From Thermotoga caldifontis AZM44c09 (GTDB lineage: Bacteria > Thermotogota > Thermotogae > Thermotogales > DSM-5069): a stretch of DNA of 64,000 nucleotides. Of the stretch, positions 53,906 to 64,000 are shown one piece after another. The translations under genes and the position numbers were made by a program. The first letter of the stretch is position 1; each line of letters opens with the position of its first letter. The DNA lies in the NCBI RefSeq assembly GCF_000828655.1, contig NZ_AP014509.1, positions 1 through 64,000 of the forward strand, in the 5' to 3' direction. Under the pieces are notes generated by a model that saw nothing but the letters and a program-made list of their open reading frames with translations, was not told where the DNA came from and did no database searches.

Positions 53906-53930
53906 AACGATCAGAAAGGAAGGTGTGACG

Positions 53931-55127
53931 ATGGTGAAGGTTTGGATCGAAAAGGTTCTCACCGATCCAGAGGTTTATCTTCTGAGGATCGACGATGGAG
54001 AGATCAAATACTTCGAGGCCAGCTGGGACATTCCAGAAGGTATCAGTTACAACGCTTACCTTGTGAAACTGAACGGTGCAAACGTTTTGATCGACGGCTG
54101 GAAGAAGAACTACAGCAACGATTTCCTCAAGGCACTTTCAAGCCTCATCGATCCAAAGGACATCACACACATCATCGTCAACCACAGTGAGCCGGACCAC
54201 AGCGGAACGCTTCCTGACGTACTGAACGCGAACAAGAACAAAGCGAAGGTGATCGCTTCGAACTTCGCCAAGAAACTCCTCGAAAGCTTTTACGGCATCA
54301 CGAACGTGGAGGCGGTCTCGGACGACCAGCAGATGCGGATCGGCGAGAAAACCTTCCGTTTCGTCATGACGCCCTGGCTGCACTGGCCAGACACGATGGT
54401 GACCTACCTGGAGGGAGTTCTGTTCGGCTGCGACGTTGGAGGAGGTTATTCGTTACCAGCAGCCATCGACGATTCGGACGAAAGGATCGTGGAGGAGTAC
54501 CTCCCGTACGTGACCAAATACATCGTGACCGTGATAGGACATTACAAAAGCTACATCGTGGAGGGCGCGAAGAAATTATCGAACCTCGACATAAAAGTCT
54601 TGTTACCCGGCCACGGACTGATATGGAAAAAAGATCCTCAAAGACTTCTGCAACACTACGTGAACGTCGCAAACGGCGTGGCTCAGGAAAAGAAGATCCT
54701 TGTCGTTTACGACTCCATGTACGGTTTCGTCGAGAACGTGATGAACAGAGTCCTGGGCGTGTTGAAAGAAAAAGGTTACAACCTTGTCGTTCACAGATTC
54801 ACCGATCAACACGACTCTCCCCTGAGCGAAATCCTGAAAGATGTGCCTGACAGTCGCGCGCTCGTGTTCGGTGTTTCGACGTACGAAGCCGACATCCATC
54901 CCAAGATGAGGTACGTCCTCTACGAGATCATGGACAAGGCGAACTACGAGAAACCCGTGCTCTTTTTCGGCGTTCATGGCTGGGCGGCGTCCGTTGAACT
55001 CACGGTGAAAAAAATTCTGAAAGATTCAAAATTCAAGTTCGTGTCCTTCGTCGAAACGAAAGGCGGCAGAGTCGACGAAGAAAGAATGAAGCAGGCGATG
55101 GAAGGATTTTTGAAGGAGCTGGAGTGA
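53931..55127 (+). CDS. fprA: Flavodiiron protein (FprA/ROO-type oxygen reductase)
   Basis: About 398 residues. The N-terminal beta-lactamase-like domain holds a diiron site (VNHSEPDHSGTLPDVL, HWPDTMVTYL, and GCDVGGGYS). The C-terminal flavodoxin domain binds FMN (LVVYDSMYGFVENVMNRVLG, FGVSTYEAD). Known members reduce O2 to water, or NO to N2O, with electrons from rubredoxin. The rubredoxin reductase gene follows with overlap. ATG 53931 is chosen; GTG 53925 would add two residues. Confidence 0.95.
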   Translation: MVKVWIEKVLTDPEVYLLRIDDGEIKYFEASWDIPEGISYNAYLVKLNGANVLIDGWKKNYSNDFLKALSSLIDPKDITHIIVNHSEPDHSGTLPDVLNANKNKAKVIASNFAKKLLESFYGITNVEAVSDDQQMRIGEKTFRFVMTPWLHWPDTMVTYLEGVLFGCDVGGGYSLPAAIDDSDERIVEEYLPYVTKYIVTVIGHYKSYIVEGAKKLSNLDIKVLLPGHGLIWKKDPQRLLQHYVNVANGVAQEKKILVVYDSMYGFVENVMNRVLGVLKEKGYNLVVHRFTDQHDSPLSEILKDVPDSRALVFGVSTYEADIHPKMRYVLYEIMDKANYEKPVLFFGVHGWAASVELTVKKILKDSKFKFVSFVETKGGRVDEERMKQAMEGFLKELE

Positions 55128-55132
55128 AGAGT

Positions 55133-56212
55133 ATGAAAGTCGTGATCGTTGGGAACGGCCCCGGTGGGGTGGAACTCGCGAAGCTTTTAGCGAAAGAACA
55201 CGACGTGACGATCGTCGAGAAAGAAGAGATACCTCACTACGTCAAGCCCATGATGAGCCACTACGTGGCAGGAGATGCCGACAAGTCACAGCTGTTTCCG
55301 TATCCGCTGGACTGGTACAGGAAGAACCGCATAGAACTGCTCCTCAAGACTGAAGCGAGAAGGATCGACGCCGAAAACAAGATCCTTCACACCGACGCGG
55401 GTGCTCTGAGTTTCGATGTGCTCGTGCTCGCAACGGGTGCCAGGGCCCGAAAAATAACGGTGCCCGGTGCGGAGAACATGCTCACGCTGAGAACTTGGCA
55501 GGATGCGGAGAAGCTCAAAGAAAGGCTCGAAAAAGAGAAAGAGCTGTTGATCGTTGGGGCGGGCTTCATCGGACTGGAACTGGCTGGGAACCTTGCGAAA
55601 AAAGGCTACAGGATCAGAGTGGTTGAGAAGACAAACTCTCTGCTCAATCTCGAGAAGGAACTGACCGAAAGGATAAAAGAGAGGCTCGAAAGTTACGGTG
55701 TCGAGTTCTTCCTCGGTAGGGACATCGAAAGGATAGAGAAAGACGTCCTGGTGACGGACAAAGAAGAGATCCCCGCAAGGCTGATACTCTGCGCGATCGG
55801 TATCGTTCCCGAGATCGAGCTCGCGAAAGAAAGCGGTGCGAAGGTGAACAGGGGCGTTCTCGTCGACAAAAAATTCAGAACGTCCCTGCCGAACGTTTAC
55901 GCCATAGGGGACTGCGCCGAATTCGAGGGGATCATTTCAGGCACGGCGAAAGCGGCCATGGATCAGGCAAAGGTGCTGGCGAACATCCTGAGCGGACTAT
56001 CCAACGAATTCGATTTTCAGTTCAGATCCTCCTACTTCAAATTCGCCGACCTGCCGGTGGCGATCCTTGGTCGTCTTGAGGGCGAGCCGAGATGGATAGA
56101 CGAACGCACCAGAGCTTTTTATAAGGACGATCGCATCGTCGGTGTTGTCGTCCTTGAGGACATCAAGCAAGCCCGCGCGTGGGAAGAGAGGCTCAGGAAA
56201 AACTCAGTCTGA
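55133..56212 (+). CDS. NADH:rubredoxin oxidoreductase-like flavoprotein
   Basis: About 359 residues with two dinucleotide folds: FAD site VVIVGNGPGGVELAKLL, NAD site LLIVGAGFIGLELAGNLA, the ATGARARK linker and YAIGDCAEFEG near the FAD. The EIPHYVKPMMSHYVAG region resembles T. maritima TM0754-type NROs. It likely passes NADH electrons to rubredoxin (57605-57766), then to the flavodiiron protein. ATG 55133 has GGAG at good spacing; GTG 55124 overlaps the upstream stop. Confidence 0.92.
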   Translation: MKVVIVGNGPGGVELAKLLAKEHDVTIVEKEEIPHYVKPMMSHYVAGDADKSQLFPYPLDWYRKNRIELLLKTEARRIDAENKILHTDAGALSFDVLVLATGARARKITVPGAENMLTLRTWQDAEKLKERLEKEKELLIVGAGFIGLELAGNLAKKGYRIRVVEKTNSLLNLEKELTERIKERLESYGVEFFLGRDIERIEKDVLVTDKEEIPARLILCAIGIVPEIELAKESGAKVNRGVLVDKKFRTSLPNVYAIGDCAEFEGIISGTAKAAMDQAKVLANILSGLSNEFDFQFRSSYFKFADLPVAILGRLEGEPRWIDERTRAFYKDDRIVGVVVLEDIKQARAWEERLRKNSV

Positions 56213-56215
56213 ATC

Positions 56216-57517
56216 CTATTGATCCTTCCAGTCCAGCAACCTCTTTTCACCTTCGAGTTTTTTGATGTCGGTGACATCTTGGACGAGTTCCAATGTTCCC
56301 AGATATTCGCCGTTTCTGCTGTGAACCGGAAAGTATCTTATGTGAACCAGCCTTCCACCGAGGTTTATCCAGAACTCCGCCACTCGCTTTCTTCCCTCTT
56401 TGAAGGATTTCAAGATCCTGTTGACGATGTGCACGCTCCTCGGCGGATGACAGAACTGAACGGGTCTTCCTATGACCGTGATGGCTCTGTGGAATATCCT
56501 CTGGCCGTGCGAGAAGAACTTGACCCTGTCGTTCTCATCGATGAAGGTGATGTCCAACGGCAGGGTCCTGAAAATGGCTTCGAGTTCTTCAACGTTGAGG
56601 AAACCGCTTCTAAACTCGAGATCTTTTTCTTTACGCACCATGTAATTGTCTGGAGTGAGTGTGCCGACAACTTTTCTGACCTCTTCCGGCATCTTTCGGT
56701 AGGTTTCTTCGTCCACTCTGGGATCTATCTCGAACGGTAACAACGGCTTCTGTGACGGTTGCCATTCTCTCTTCACATCAATCTTGTAGAAGCCGATCTC
56801 CTCTTCGAACTGGCTCACGGCAGCCCACTCACCTTCCGAGAGGAGCACCAGCAAGGTGGGATAGAGGATGTTGTTCTCTCTGAAGACCATGTCCGCCATC
56901 ATGCGGGACAGCTCGAGTGATTCCTTCTTCAAACGTTCTTCATCTTTTGAAGTTTCGTACAGATCCAGAACCAGTTTCACCTTCAACCTTATCTCATCGT
57001 GTTTGGACCAGAGGACACTCGGTACTGCGGTGATCCCTCTCCTTTCCAGATAAGGAAAAACAAGCATCTCTTCTCTGGTGTAATGTGTGAACCCTATGTT
57101 TCTCATCTGTCTCAAGAGTTCCTTCAACCTGCTCAAAAGTTCGCCTTTCTTTTCCCCTTCAGGCAGCGAGAAGGCAGTCGAAGCCAGCAGAGAGAGCGCT
57201 TCTGAATCTTTCAGGATTTCCTTGTTTTCCTCGAACAAGTTCCTCAGAGGATGACCCTGGGGAAGTTCCTCAATCTTGCTCGATGCTCCGCTCACGGCCC
57301 CCCTGAATAGCTCCACGTGAAGGTCGCACATCTTCACGATGTCTCTCACCGTTATCTCGCCTTCTCTGAGGAGTTCCTGCTCGATGGTGGCAATCTCGAA
57401 GGGTGAAAGCTTCGAGATGATCTCGCCGAACTCTTCCTTCAGAGATTCGATGCTCTCACCCTGATGAAGCCTCTTCAGAATGGTCTTGAAAAGTTCTACC
57501 TTTTCCTTCTGTTCCAC
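56216..57517 (-). CDS. DUF438/hemerythrin/PAS sensor-like protein
   Basis: 433 residues. The N-terminus is DUF438 (ILKRLHQGESIESLKEEFGE, LSPFEIATIEQELL). The middle resembles hemerythrin (GFTHYTREEMLVFPYLERR, SVLWSKHDEIRLKVKL, ENNILYPTLLVLL), which would bind a diiron-O2 site. The C-terminus is PAS-like (LPLDITFIDENDRVKFFS, PVQFCHPPRSVHIVN). This order is common in anaerobes and thought to be oxygen/redox-linked. GTG 57517 with AGGAGGG, shortly after a terminator. Confidence 0.88.
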   Translation of the reverse strand: MEQKEKVELFKTILKRLHQGESIESLKEEFGEIISKLSPFEIATIEQELLREGEITVRDIVKMCDLHVELFRGAVSGASSKIEELPQGHPLRNLFEENKEILKDSEALSLLASTAFSLPEGEKKGELLSRLKELLRQMRNIGFTHYTREEMLVFPYLERRGITAVPSVLWSKHDEIRLKVKLVLDLYETSKDEERLKKESLELSRMMADMVFRENNILYPTLLVLLSEGEWAAVSQFEEEIGFYKIDVKREWQPSQKPLLPFEIDPRVDEETYRKMPEEVRKVVGTLTPDNYMVRKEKDLEFRSGFLNVEELEAIFRTLPLDITFIDENDRVKFFSHGQRIFHRAITVIGRPVQFCHPPRSVHIVNRILKSFKEGRKRVAEFWINLGGRLVHIRYFPVHSRNGEYLGTLELVQDVTDIKKLEGEKRLLDWKDQ

Positions 57518-57534
57518 GGATCCTTCCCTCCTTT

Positions 57535-57559
57535 TTAAAAAAGCCCCCTCGCGGGGGCT
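57535..57559 (-). terminator. Terminator between rubredoxin and the hemerythrin gene
   Basis: AGCCCCC-TCGC-GGGGGCT stem (7 bp) with, on the minus strand, TTTTTT immediately after. It should end the rubrerythrin-SOR-rubredoxin message; the DUF438 gene starts 18 nt further on and may get only read-through. Confidence 0.8.
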
Positions 57560-57604
57560 CCATTTTTTGTGAAAGACTCGGTTCGATCGGCGCAATCAAC
57601 GCGC

Positions 57605-57766
57605 TCATTCGACCGGTTCAAACTGGTCTTTCGAAGCTCCGCACAGCGGACAGACCCAATCGTCCGGCAACGCCTCGAAAGGTGTTCCCGGAGGTACGTT
57701 GGCATCAGGATCGCCCACTTCTGGATCGTAGATGTAACCGCACAGCATGCAGCGATATTTCTTCAT
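57605..57766 (-). CDS. Rubredoxin
   Basis: A 53-residue gene read directly from the sequence: [20 protein letters not shown] at the N-terminus and [19 protein letters not shown] at the C-terminus. The two CxxCG pairs bind one iron; the intervening FEALPDDW is typical. It carries electrons from NADH:rubredoxin reductase to flavodiiron protein, superoxide reductase or rubrerythrin. It follows SOR by 9 nt. Confidence 0.97.
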
Positions 57767-57775
57767 GTTTCCACC

Positions 57776-58171
57776 TCATTCTTCAACGACGATCTTCTTG
57801 CTGCTCTCCCAGAGACCGTGTATGTTGCAGTAAGACAGTGCCAGTATGGTGCCGGATCTGTTCAACTTCACCTTGCTCACCACGACGGGTTCTGTGTAGA
57901 CCGCGCCCGTGTTCGGACCCTGGACGGATTCTCCGTGTGCGCTGAATTCGTACTTTCCTACCTCGTAAATGTAGGGATCACCATCTGGCTGGAAGAAGAC
58001 CTGAATCCATCTGATGTGATGCTCCGTCGTGTTGGGATGTGGAATTTCTTTCCCGACGGTGACCGTGATCTGGACTGGTTCGTTCTTCTTAACCTTATCG
58101 GGTGCCTCGATGACCGGAACGTGCTTTTCCTTTTTGAAATCTTCACTCTTGATGAAATCTGCCAGTTTCAT
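57776..58171 (-). CDS. Superoxide reductase (neelaredoxin)
   Basis: Reduces superoxide to peroxide without making O2. The 131 residues keep the Fe(His)4(Cys) ligands: EKHVPVIEAP, EHHIRWIQVFF and SYCNIHGLWESS. There is no N-terminal desulforedoxin domain, so it is a class II (neelaredoxin) form. ATG 58171 has GAGGAGGG upstream; the longer frame runs into the rubrerythrin gene. Confidence 0.96.
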   Translation of the reverse strand: MKLADFIKSEDFKKEKHVPVIEAPDKVKKNEPVQITVTVGKEIPHPNTTEHHIRWIQVFFQPDGDPYIYEVGKYEFSAHGESVQGPNTGAVYTEPVVVSKVKLNRSGTILALSYCNIHGLWESSKKIVVEE

Positions 58172-58182
58172 GTTTTCCCTCC

Positions 58183-58695
58183 TCAAACGGAGAATTCCCT
58201 GTAGGAATTCTTCGGAGCCCCACAGACTGGACACTTCTCGGGTGGTTCGTTCTCGACCGTGTGGCCGCAGACAGGGCAGATGTAGATCTTCGCGGCTGGA
58301 TAGTCTTCTTTCTTTTCGACGAGCTGCTTCGCCTTCTTGTACATCTCCGCATGGATCTTCTCAGCTTCCCAGGCGAACTTCGTGCTCCTCTCTGCACCTT
58401 TCTCCTGCTGAAACTGTGCGACCGTGTTGTAGACCGGATACATCTCGTTGATCTCGAACGTTTCGCCGTCGATGCACTGCTGCACGTTCTCAGGCATTTC
58501 CCTGTAGATCTTTCCGAGTTCTCTGTAATGATTCCGTGCATGAACAAACTCTGCGTAGGCGATGGCTCTGAAAAGGTTCGCGAGTTTCTTGAGTCCTCTC
58601 TGTTCGGCTTCCTCCGCGAAGATCAAATACTTCATGTGTGCCATGCTTTCTCCCGCGAAGGCGTCCTCGAGGAACTTCTTCGTCATCTCCCTCAC
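58183..58695 (-). CDS. Rubrerythrin
   Basis: Peroxide-reducing protein: an N-terminal four-helix diiron domain (FAGESMAHMKYLIFAEEAEQ, RAIAYAEFVHARNHY, AEKIHAEMY) and a C-terminal rubredoxin domain (YICPVCGHTVENEPPEKCPVCGA, CxxC pairs). About 170 residues. GTG 58695 has GGGGGTGG upstream; ATG 58686 is possible. First gene of the minus-strand set with SOR and rubredoxin. Confidence 0.95.
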   Translation of the reverse strand: MREMTKKFLEDAFAGESMAHMKYLIFAEEAEQRGLKKLANLFRAIAYAEFVHARNHYRELGKIYREMPENVQQCIDGETFEINEMYPVYNTVAQFQQEKGAERSTKFAWEAEKIHAEMYKKAKQLVEKKEDYPAAKIYICPVCGHTVENEPPEKCPVCGAPKNSYREFSV

Positions 58696-58726
58696 AAGAC
58701 CACCCCCTGAAAGCTTTCTCAATTTG

Positions 58727-61112: not shown

Positions 61113-62426
61113 GTGGATCTCACGATCAAAGTACCTCTCAAATCTTTTGTTAAGCTTTTCAGAGAAATGAAAGTCTTAGAATACAAGTATTTTGTGAAAC
61201 ATTCCATACAGGTAGCGAAATTAACGATGAAGATCGCAGAGAAGCTGGATCTTCCTTACGATAGAGATAACGCGTATCTTTTAGGCCTGTTCCACGACCT
61301 CGGGCTGATCTTGAAGGCGTCGATTGAAAACTACGATCTGTTCGCCGACATGTTCAGAAGGGTTCCAGACCTGGAAAGGGTGGTGACAACGCTCGACAGG
61401 CAAGATCAGCACTCGGCCATCTCCTACATGATAGCACGCCAGAGTAAACCTCTCTGTCCTGTCTGCGCGAGGGCTATCCTCTATCACCACACACCCTTTC
61501 AAAAGATAAAGGAAGACGATGATCTGATCCTCTTATCCAGTAGTATCAAAACGGCCGATTTGATTTCGCTCGCCGCTCTGAAACAGGAAGAGACGAACAA
61601 AGAACTGGACGCGGAGTTCTTCACCCATGTGATTTCTTCGATCAAGAAGGATGCAGGCATACCGGACGATGTGAAGAAAGCCGCCGTCGATGTACTGCTT
61701 GACGTCATCGCGAACTCTATCATCAGCGACGATGATCTGTGTTTCGATTCCGACCAGAAGCTAGACATCACAGATTTCAAACAGCTCGCCAGAATAATTG
61801 CCACCTTGCTGGACTTTCGAAGCCCGTACACGAGAAATCACACCTTCGTCTGCATGAAAATAGCGGAAATACTCAGTGGAGAAACGCTGGGCGATGCGGA
61901 CGTAACTTTGATCAGCACCGCCGCCTTGCTACACGATATAGGAAAGATCAAAACCCCACTGAGCATACTGCACAAGAGAGGCAGGCTCGATGCGGAGGAA
62001 TTCGTTATAATGAAGAGACACGTGGTCGACACGTATTACATGCTGGAACGTGCGGACCTCAGAGTTTTTTCCATCATCGGTGCGGCGCACCACGAGAGAC
62101 TCGATGGGAGCGGTTATCCTCTCGGATTGAGAGATGAACAGCTGCTGTACCACCAGAAGATCATACAGATCTGCGACGTTTTTTCCGCGCTCGTGGAAGA
62201 AAGGCCATACCGAAGTGCGCTGAGCATCGAAGAAGCGCTCGGGGTGATCGAAAAAGAGGTTGCACACGGTAAACTCGACGCAGGCATCTTTGAAAGGCTC
62301 AAGGCAATAGCCCGCAACTACGACCTTAAAGAACTAATCTCTTTCAAACACGTGTTTGAAGAACTGTTCCAAGAGGATGTTGATGAAGTGAGTCAGATGA
62401 TCAGCCTGGAAGCGGAAAAAATTTAA
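61113..62426 (+). CDS. Tandem HD / HD-GYP phosphodiesterase-like protein
   Basis: 437 residues. The N-terminal ~170 contain a first HD-type region ([26 protein letters not shown]). The second half is an HD-GYP domain: [62 protein letters not shown]. The GYP motif is intact, so c-di-GMP cleavage is likely; no membrane segment or PAS domain. GTG 61113. An H-NOX chemoreceptor gene follows by 20 nt. Confidence 0.92.
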
Positions 62427-62446
62427 TCTTTCCGGGAGGGAAGGAC

Positions 62447-64000
62447 ATGAAAGGTTTCATCGTCAACGTTTGGTTGCAAACCTGGTCCAGAATGTTCGGC
62501 GCAGAGACCGTGAAGAGGTTGAAGGAAAAGTACGGTGTGCCCCTCGACACTTTCTACAAACCGATCGAAGACGTGCCGGATGATCTACCTGTCAACATGT
62601 CGAAAGAACTGGCAGCGATGAAGAATCTCACTTACGAAGAACTCTGGTATCGAACTGGTAAGGAAAACCTGAGAACGTTCTTCGAACACTACCCTGAATA
62701 CTTCAAGAAATCGGGTTTTCTCTCGTTCATGGCCGCGATGGACGCGGTCCACAGGGTGCTGACCAGAAGGATCAAGGGTGCGACGCCACCGAGGGTCTTC
62801 TTCAAACTGGTCGATCCGCACAGAGCGATCGTGAGGTACGAGTCCAGGAGAAACTTCAAGAACTACTTTTTGGGCCTGATGGAGGCGGCCTCCGAGCTGT
62901 TCAACGATCCAGTGAAGTACAAAATTTTACGGGAGGGTAGTGCCGACGGAAAGAATTTCCTCGAGGTTCAAATAGAAGCGACGAAAGCGTACGGAAGGTT
63001 CGAAAAGCTCAGGAGCCTGACGGTTCTGGGTCTTGGGTTCATCAAGTCGATCGTTCCCATCAACGTGCTGATGATCCCGTTGTTCAGTTTTCTCATCGTG
63101 TTTCTGGTTTTCACCTTCGTACCAGCTGGGAACCTCATCAGATCGATCATCAGTGCTCTGGGTATCTCTGCCCTGATGTTTTTCGACGTCAAAGGTTTGG
63201 AGAAGGGTTTGAAAGTGCTGAAAGAGACTGTGGGGTTGATCTCCAGAAAGAACTTCGATAATCCCGTTTTGATCGGCAACGTGAAAGAATTCTCCGATCT
63301 CTCTGAAAGCCTGAACGAATCTGTGGAGAAGATCAAGGAAGTGTTCCTGGGAATATCCGGTGACATCCAGGAGATAAGCACCTACTCGTCTAAGGTGATA
63401 GACGCCGTGAACAGCATGAGAGAACAACTCGACACCATGGGCTCGCTTTCGAACGAGATAGCCAACACCGCGGTACAGATAAGCAACGACACCGAGAGGA
63501 TCTCGAACGCGGTGACGTCGAACGTTGACACCATCACGGCCATAATATCTGAACAAACGCAGATCGTGAAATCTCTCAACGAAGCTGTTTCACTGATCGT
63601 CCGTTCGGCGGGCAACGTCGAGCAATCCGCAGACGGCATAGTCAAAATGAGTCAGAGGTTCTCCAACCTCGTGGAAGAGGCAAGAAAGTTACAAGAACAG
63701 GCCGGCATGATCATGCAGGTTGCGGCGACCGTGTCGAGCATCGCGGAACAGACCAACCTGCTCGCGCTCAACGCCGCTATAGAAGCCGCGAGGAGCGGGG
63801 AAGCGGGAAGAGGCTTCGCGGTCGTGGCAGACGAGATAAGAAAGCTCGCCGAGGAGAGTCGAAATTCTTCTTCGAAGATAGCCGAATTCCTCTCGTCCAT
63901 AAACACTGGCATCGACAGATTGGTTCAAACCATCCAGGCAGAGTTCAACGAGATGAAGGAACAATCGAACAGATTGCTCGAAAGCTCCGAGAAAAACAAA
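62447..64000 (+). CDS. H-NOX heme sensor fused to chemoreceptor (partial)
   Basis: Cut by the right edge: 518 residues present. Residues 1-~190 are a heme H-NOX domain: proximal His102 ([10 protein letters not shown]), Pro115 (KGATPPR), heme-propionate motif YxSxR at 131-135 (YESRR). The O2-type distal pocket Trp9, Asn74, Tyr140 is intact. Then about two membrane segments (~200-245), and a methyl-accepting signalling domain with the hairpin [20 protein letters not shown] and [18 protein letters not shown]. It resembles Caldanaerobacter/Thermoanaerobacter tengcongensis Tar4 (H-NOX-MCP). ATG 62447 follows GGGAGGGAAGG. Confidence 0.95.

Follow-up and report, generated by a model that had tools for sequence, protein, structure and literature searches.

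The closest described system to the receptor analysed here is the H-NOX-MCP protein of Caldanaerobacter subterraneus subsp. tengcongensis, whose sensor domain (Tt, Cs or Ct H-NOX; PDB 1u4h, 1u55 and 1xbn) is also fused to an MCP. H-NOX domains of this class bind not only O2 but also NO and CO, and according to a study of the Caldanaerobacter protein from 2021 the O2-sensor role long ascribed to the H-NOX-MCP proteins of anaerobes is not yet demonstrated (PMC9814294). The H-NOX of Clostridium botulinum, compared here by its description rather than by its sequence, shares the ligand-contacting distal residues and also binds O2; its Kd is 53 uM, while that of the Caldanaerobacter protein is 44 nM (PMC7356049). 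Because these two values differ a thousand-fold, the distal triad formed by Trp9, Asn74 and Tyr140 does not fix the affinity for O2, which is not predictable from it. A further relative, from Acetoanaerobium noterae (NZ_CP154629, L111), is a protein of 604 aa with the same domain order and 31% identity, in which Trp9, Asn74, His102 and Tyr140 are aligned; it was the one match of a plasmid search, and the 2.63-Mb record labelled plasmid on which it lies (NZ_CP154629.1) is probably a chromosome. Finally, the NO-selective stand-alone H-NOX proteins, such as those of Shewanella, Vibrio and Nostoc and, among the Thermotogota examined, L014, have in common with our receptor the H-NOX fold, the proximal His102 and the YxSxR motif.

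Architecture and distal pocket of the receptor

The window, that is, the whole stretch of DNA that was analysed, comprises the first 64,000 nucleotides of contig NZ_AP014509.1 from Thermotoga caldifontis AZM44c09. The receptor gene starts at ATG 62447 on the forward strand, preceded by a ribosome-binding-like GGGAGGGAAGG (62434..62444, + strand), and is truncated by the end of the window at residue 518 (62447..64000). The complete gene encodes 606 aa (L032:8448-10268), corresponding to about 62447-64267 in window numbering. The product consists, in this order and all encoded on the + strand, of an H-NOX sensor domain (62447..62986, residues 1-180), a two-helix membrane segment (63014..63190, residues ~190-248) and an MCP signalling domain, of which 63644..64000 lies within the window. 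The first domain is recognized by Pfam HNOB (PF07700; residues 2-159, 1e-37) and the last one by Pfam MCPsignal (residues 400-509, 1.4e-29). According to hydropathy, the two hydrophobic helices between them act as a membrane anchor, and since there are two of these stretches, the H-NOX and MCP domains would both face the same side of the membrane, presumably the cytoplasmic one. The features of a chemoreceptor are thus present, including the hairpin tip of the MCPsignal domain and a CheA in the same genome.

The original prediction held that eight residues of the H-NOX domain (W9, N74, H102, P115, Y131, S133, R135 and Y140) occupy the very positions that they have in the T. tengcongensis protein. 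Translation from ATG 62447 bears this numbering out, and all eight align without gaps: phmmer pairs residues 1-178 of the receptor with residues 1-178 of PDB 1u4h with zero gaps (E 1.5e-30), with 60 of 179 positions identical (34%). The identical residues, carrying the same numbers, include Phe78 and Leu144 besides the eight named ones, and Met98 is also shared. In contrast, T. caldifontis, which belongs to another phylum, has Leu75 instead of Ile and Ala97 instead of Met. The codons of the distal triad lie at 62471..62473 (Trp9), 62666..62668 (Asn74) and 62864..62866 (Tyr140, the distal hydrogen-bond donor to O2), that of the proximal heme ligand His102 at 62750..62752, and those of the heme propionate clamp, Tyr131-x-Ser133-x-Arg135, at 62837..62851, all of them on the + strand.

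An AlphaFold model, built from the window sequence together with three relatives, reaches a mean pLDDT of 76.8 and finds its best structural matches in the Caldanaerobacter structures, with a TM of up to 0.88 (1u55) and, in the Foldseek comparison with 1u4h, an E of 8e-17 and a TM of 0.87. In this model, Trp9 lies on helix 3-17, Asn74 on helix 63-81, His102 on helix 91-107 and Tyr140 on helix 138-151. Tyr140 is therefore on the expected helix, without the shift that would have spoken against the original prediction, and its misalignment is ruled out by the gapless alignment. With profile, fold, His102 and YxSxR heme clamp all present, the domain belongs to the H-NOX family, and the W9/N74/Y140 hydrogen-bond triad would place it among the O2-binding H-NOX proteins of obligate anaerobes.

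Distribution and conservation in the Thermotogota

A search of the genome contigs for the H-NOX domain returned three close relatives only, and the distribution was taken from a search of the phylum. This search for the fusion, which the original prediction had proposed, found H-NOX in 46 of 103 Thermotogota genomes; in all but one of these it is part of an MCP fusion, complete or truncated. The fusion, already a known kind of receptor, is therefore neither new nor rare, and is here shown to be widespread in the Thermotogota. Nearly all of these proteins have about 605 aa and the same domain order; the two shortened copies are L025, at a contig end, and L047, with 311 aa.

The 45 fused domains have a median pairwise identity of 44%, and no more than 22 of the 179 columns show no variation among them. 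All eight named residues are included in these columns, an outcome with a hypergeometric chance of 1.4e-8, which is descriptive, as the sequences are related and not independent. That His102, the propionate clamp and the O2 triad never vary among them argues for selection on both heme and a gaseous ligand. The sole stand-alone H-NOX of the phylum (L014, from genome G004) differs in both respects, having L9/W74/F140 instead of the triad and lacking the MCP fusion, and its pocket is, to judge by these residues, of the NO type. In the maximum-likelihood tree, L014 falls among the H-NOX proteins of other phyla. Those sampled alongside mostly retain the heme clamp, and the triad occurs in none of that set.

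In the same tree, the 45 fused domains form one clade (support 99/95), sister to the Caldanaerobacter sensor (support 100/99). The groups within it mostly track families, of which f1 would correspond to the Pseudothermotogaceae, a name based on the named contigs L049 and L051, and f10 to the Petrotogaceae, with likely transfers of the receptor, for instance into G092/G093, which appear to have received it from within the window's own family. Genome G046 carries a second H-NOX-MCP copy on a long branch (L048/L105), which keeps the triad and has changes at Pro83 and Leu144; its other copy is linked to rubrerythrin.

H-NOX is found in 45 of the 79 Thermotogota genomes with CheA versus 1 of the 24 without it (Fisher 2.6e-6, uncorrected for relatedness), the one exception being a genome that is only 60% complete. 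This distribution is as expected for an input into chemotaxis.

Two unusual arrangements were observed in other phyla. In G125, the order is reversed, with an MCP-type sequence followed by a C-terminal H-NOX (L064:560-2737) that has His102 and Tyr140, but Thr74 and Met9. In G359, four consecutive genes (L068:1503-3930) encode H-NOX-like products of 177-199 aa in which Phe or Cys replaces the proximal His102 and the clamp Arg is gone. The joint loss of both residues gives a picture of heme loss, and these would probably be heme-free proteins with the H-NOX fold.

Gene neighbourhood, ligand and output

Oxygen-defence genes encoding rubrerythrin, desulfoferrodoxin, FprA and NADH:rubredoxin oxidoreductase occupy 53925-58722 of the window. 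Rubrerythrin (58183..58722, - strand) and desulfoferrodoxin/superoxide reductase (57776..58234, - strand) act on peroxide and superoxide. The original prediction drew attention to the 4 kb separating the receptor from these genes. The distance is correct, but it makes weak evidence, since this spacing is found otherwise only in the sister species G059 and, in the window's own lineage, the receptor is not consistently accompanied by oxygen-defence genes; the distance was consequently set aside as a strong argument for O2. Beside the rubrerythrin and FprA genes, 56216-57595 encodes a DUF438-hemerythrin-PAS protein, possibly a second O2-responsive sensor, of a non-heme type.

The case for O2 or reactive oxygen is better made by family f10, where nine loci (L084, L085, L088-L093 and L098), one per genome and spread over five genera, have the receptor immediately followed on the same strand, across a gap of some 100-200 bases, by rubrerythrin and then desulfoferrodoxin. 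Among the open-licence papers searched, none on H-NOX dealt with members of the Thermotogota, and 'H-NOX' and 'rubrerythrin' never appeared together. Other arrangements were seen in the same family: one further genus has a peroxiredoxin-like gene two or three genes 5' of the receptor, and a conserved cluster of peroxiredoxin-like, HD-GYP-like, adenosine-specific-kinase-like small protein and H-NOX-MCP genes is present in one f10 genus (L086, L087, L100, L101, L037 and L039), the names of its two small proteins being assigned by eye, without a profile search.

These neighbours bear on the nature of the ligand. The receptor might chiefly sense nitric oxide, with NO as the physiological signal and Tyr140 serving to slow oxidation by O2 or to tune ligand release. 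FprA-type flavodiiron proteins reduce NO in some species, and an FprA gene lies 7 kb upstream of the receptor. The promiscuity of the Caldanaerobacter H-NOX, which takes NO and CO besides O2, points the same way (PMC9814294). Against this, the O2 triad is present in 45/45 fused domains while the NO-type pocket is that of the only stand-alone protein, and the partner genes in five genera are those of rubrerythrin and desulfoferrodoxin, a direct linkage that supports O2 rather than NO. We therefore regard a receptor chiefly for NO as improbable and retain O2 as the likely ligand.

The HD-GYP neighbour that had been described was confirmed as an HDOD/HD + HD-GYP protein (61113..62426, + strand), which ends 20 bases 5' of the receptor and has an intact HHExxDGxGYP motif. 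Its gene keeps this position, on the same strand as the receptor, in the window's own family and in the lineages that probably acquired the receptor by transfer, usually with a spacing that ranges from an overlap (one case) to about 45 bases, and with an inserted gene at one locus. In lineages with this neighbour, both chemotaxis and c-di-GMP outputs are possible. An output chiefly through c-di-GMP, where the receptor and the adjacent phosphodiesterase would control attachment instead of swimming, would fit the presence of the HDOD-HD-GYP gene directly 5' of the receptor at most of this family's loci, its occurrence in lineages to which the receptor was apparently transferred, and its intact motif. 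However, the other families lack this neighbour and still conserve the receptor, and H-NOX follows CheA phylum-wide, which makes such an output unlikely and leaves chemotaxis as the probable main one.

Cofactor supply and proposed mechanism

What the original prediction of an oxygen receptor overlooked is that the pathway for the cofactor is missing, so that the heme itself needs explaining. Ferrochelatase (PF00762) was found in none of the 103 Thermotogota genomes and HemB (PF00490) in just 4 of them, 3 of which have H-NOX; HemB is thus missing from 43 of the 46 H-NOX genomes, including that of T. caldifontis, in whose closed genome HemC was not found either. The same searches were positive in control genomes from all over the Bacteria and, in the case of HemB and HemC, also from the Archaea, and HemB scores were near 1e-144 in the three positive relatives, which makes missed detection unlikely. 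HemB and HemC are common to all known heme routes, and their absence implies that T. caldifontis makes no heme by any known route. In Acetoanaerobium noterae, ferrochelatase is likewise absent from the 2.63-Mb record, whereas HemB is present, so that an early tetrapyrrole step exists there.

Either the heme is scavenged, or something other than heme occupies the pocket. Under the second alternative, the domain would dispense with heme and act as a redox sensor or through its fold alone, in keeping with a genome devoid of HemB, HemC and ferrochelatase. Precedents are the redox mode of the Vibrio cholerae H-NOX, which is based on zinc-bound cysteines and works without heme (PMC7108781), and the ethanol sensing of Bacillus subtilis HemAT, which bypasses its heme (PMC7542364). 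However, inspection of the whole 606-aa receptor found no cysteine at all, and hence no Vibrio-type zinc-binding cysteines, which rules out cysteine redox sensing; cysteines are also lacking in 37 of the 46 Thermotogota domains. Furthermore, the residues that serve only heme or O2 are invariant here, while in the L068 homologues the proximal His and the clamp Arg have disappeared together. Heme-free operation is accordingly a reading to which we give little credence, and scavenged heme would be the most economical one.

As for possible signs of heme use or uptake, cytochrome bd was not found in this genome and is discarded as such a sign. Its subunit I occurs in G008, G009 (L106, L107), G010 and G011, all from one Thermotogota genus and without ferrochelatase, HemB or H-NOX, that is, as a heme protein in organisms that do not make heme. 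The T. caldifontis genome does encode a BtuFCD/IsdE-like importer, whose binding protein scores 1.5e-24 with IsdE and 1.1e-17 with BtuF, both far under the curated cut-offs. PF01032 permeases of this class, which may carry B12 or siderophores, are present in 102 of the 103 Thermotogota genomes without any tie to H-NOX, and are uninformative as an H-NOX-linked heme transporter.

Taken as a whole, we favour, with a probability of about 70%, a membrane-anchored, cytoplasmic O2 receptor for taxis that is filled with imported heme. Because the cell makes no heme, scavenged external heme would load the sensor, possibly via the FecCD/BtuC-class importer, and in the H-NOX domain His102 and the clamp residues Tyr131, Ser133 and Arg135 would hold heme b. 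O2 diffusing into the cell would then bind the ferrous iron and be hydrogen-bonded by Tyr140, itself positioned by Trp9 and Asn74. The resulting shift of heme and domain would cross the membrane by way of the two-helix hairpin and reach the MCP tip, altering CheA, with a response that is most likely repellent, away from O2. The oxygen taxis receptor originally predicted is thus strengthened by the phylum-wide invariance of the triad and by the gene linkage in f10, and qualified by a triad that leaves the affinity unfixed and by the absent heme pathway; its role as an O2 sensor is well supported, but not proven.

For the specialist, the novelty would reside in the heme-less background and in the rubrerythrin-desulfoferrodoxin linkage, partner genes that suggest the purpose of the signal. 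Cofactor supply is the unsolved side of this known kind of receptor. Since heme synthesis is lacking, adding or withholding hemin could switch the sensor on and off, which makes its O2-sensing role directly testable. A more tentative idea, which we consider rather unlikely as it stands, is that an entire lineage unable to produce heme keeps a heme-based O2 sensor solely thanks to heme from its neighbours, in which case the receptor would answer only in places with both O2 and foreign heme, and the balance between its apo and holo forms would itself report the presence of heme-makers. If the heme is indeed scavenged, a signalling pathway in much of the phylum would depend on other organisms for its cofactor.
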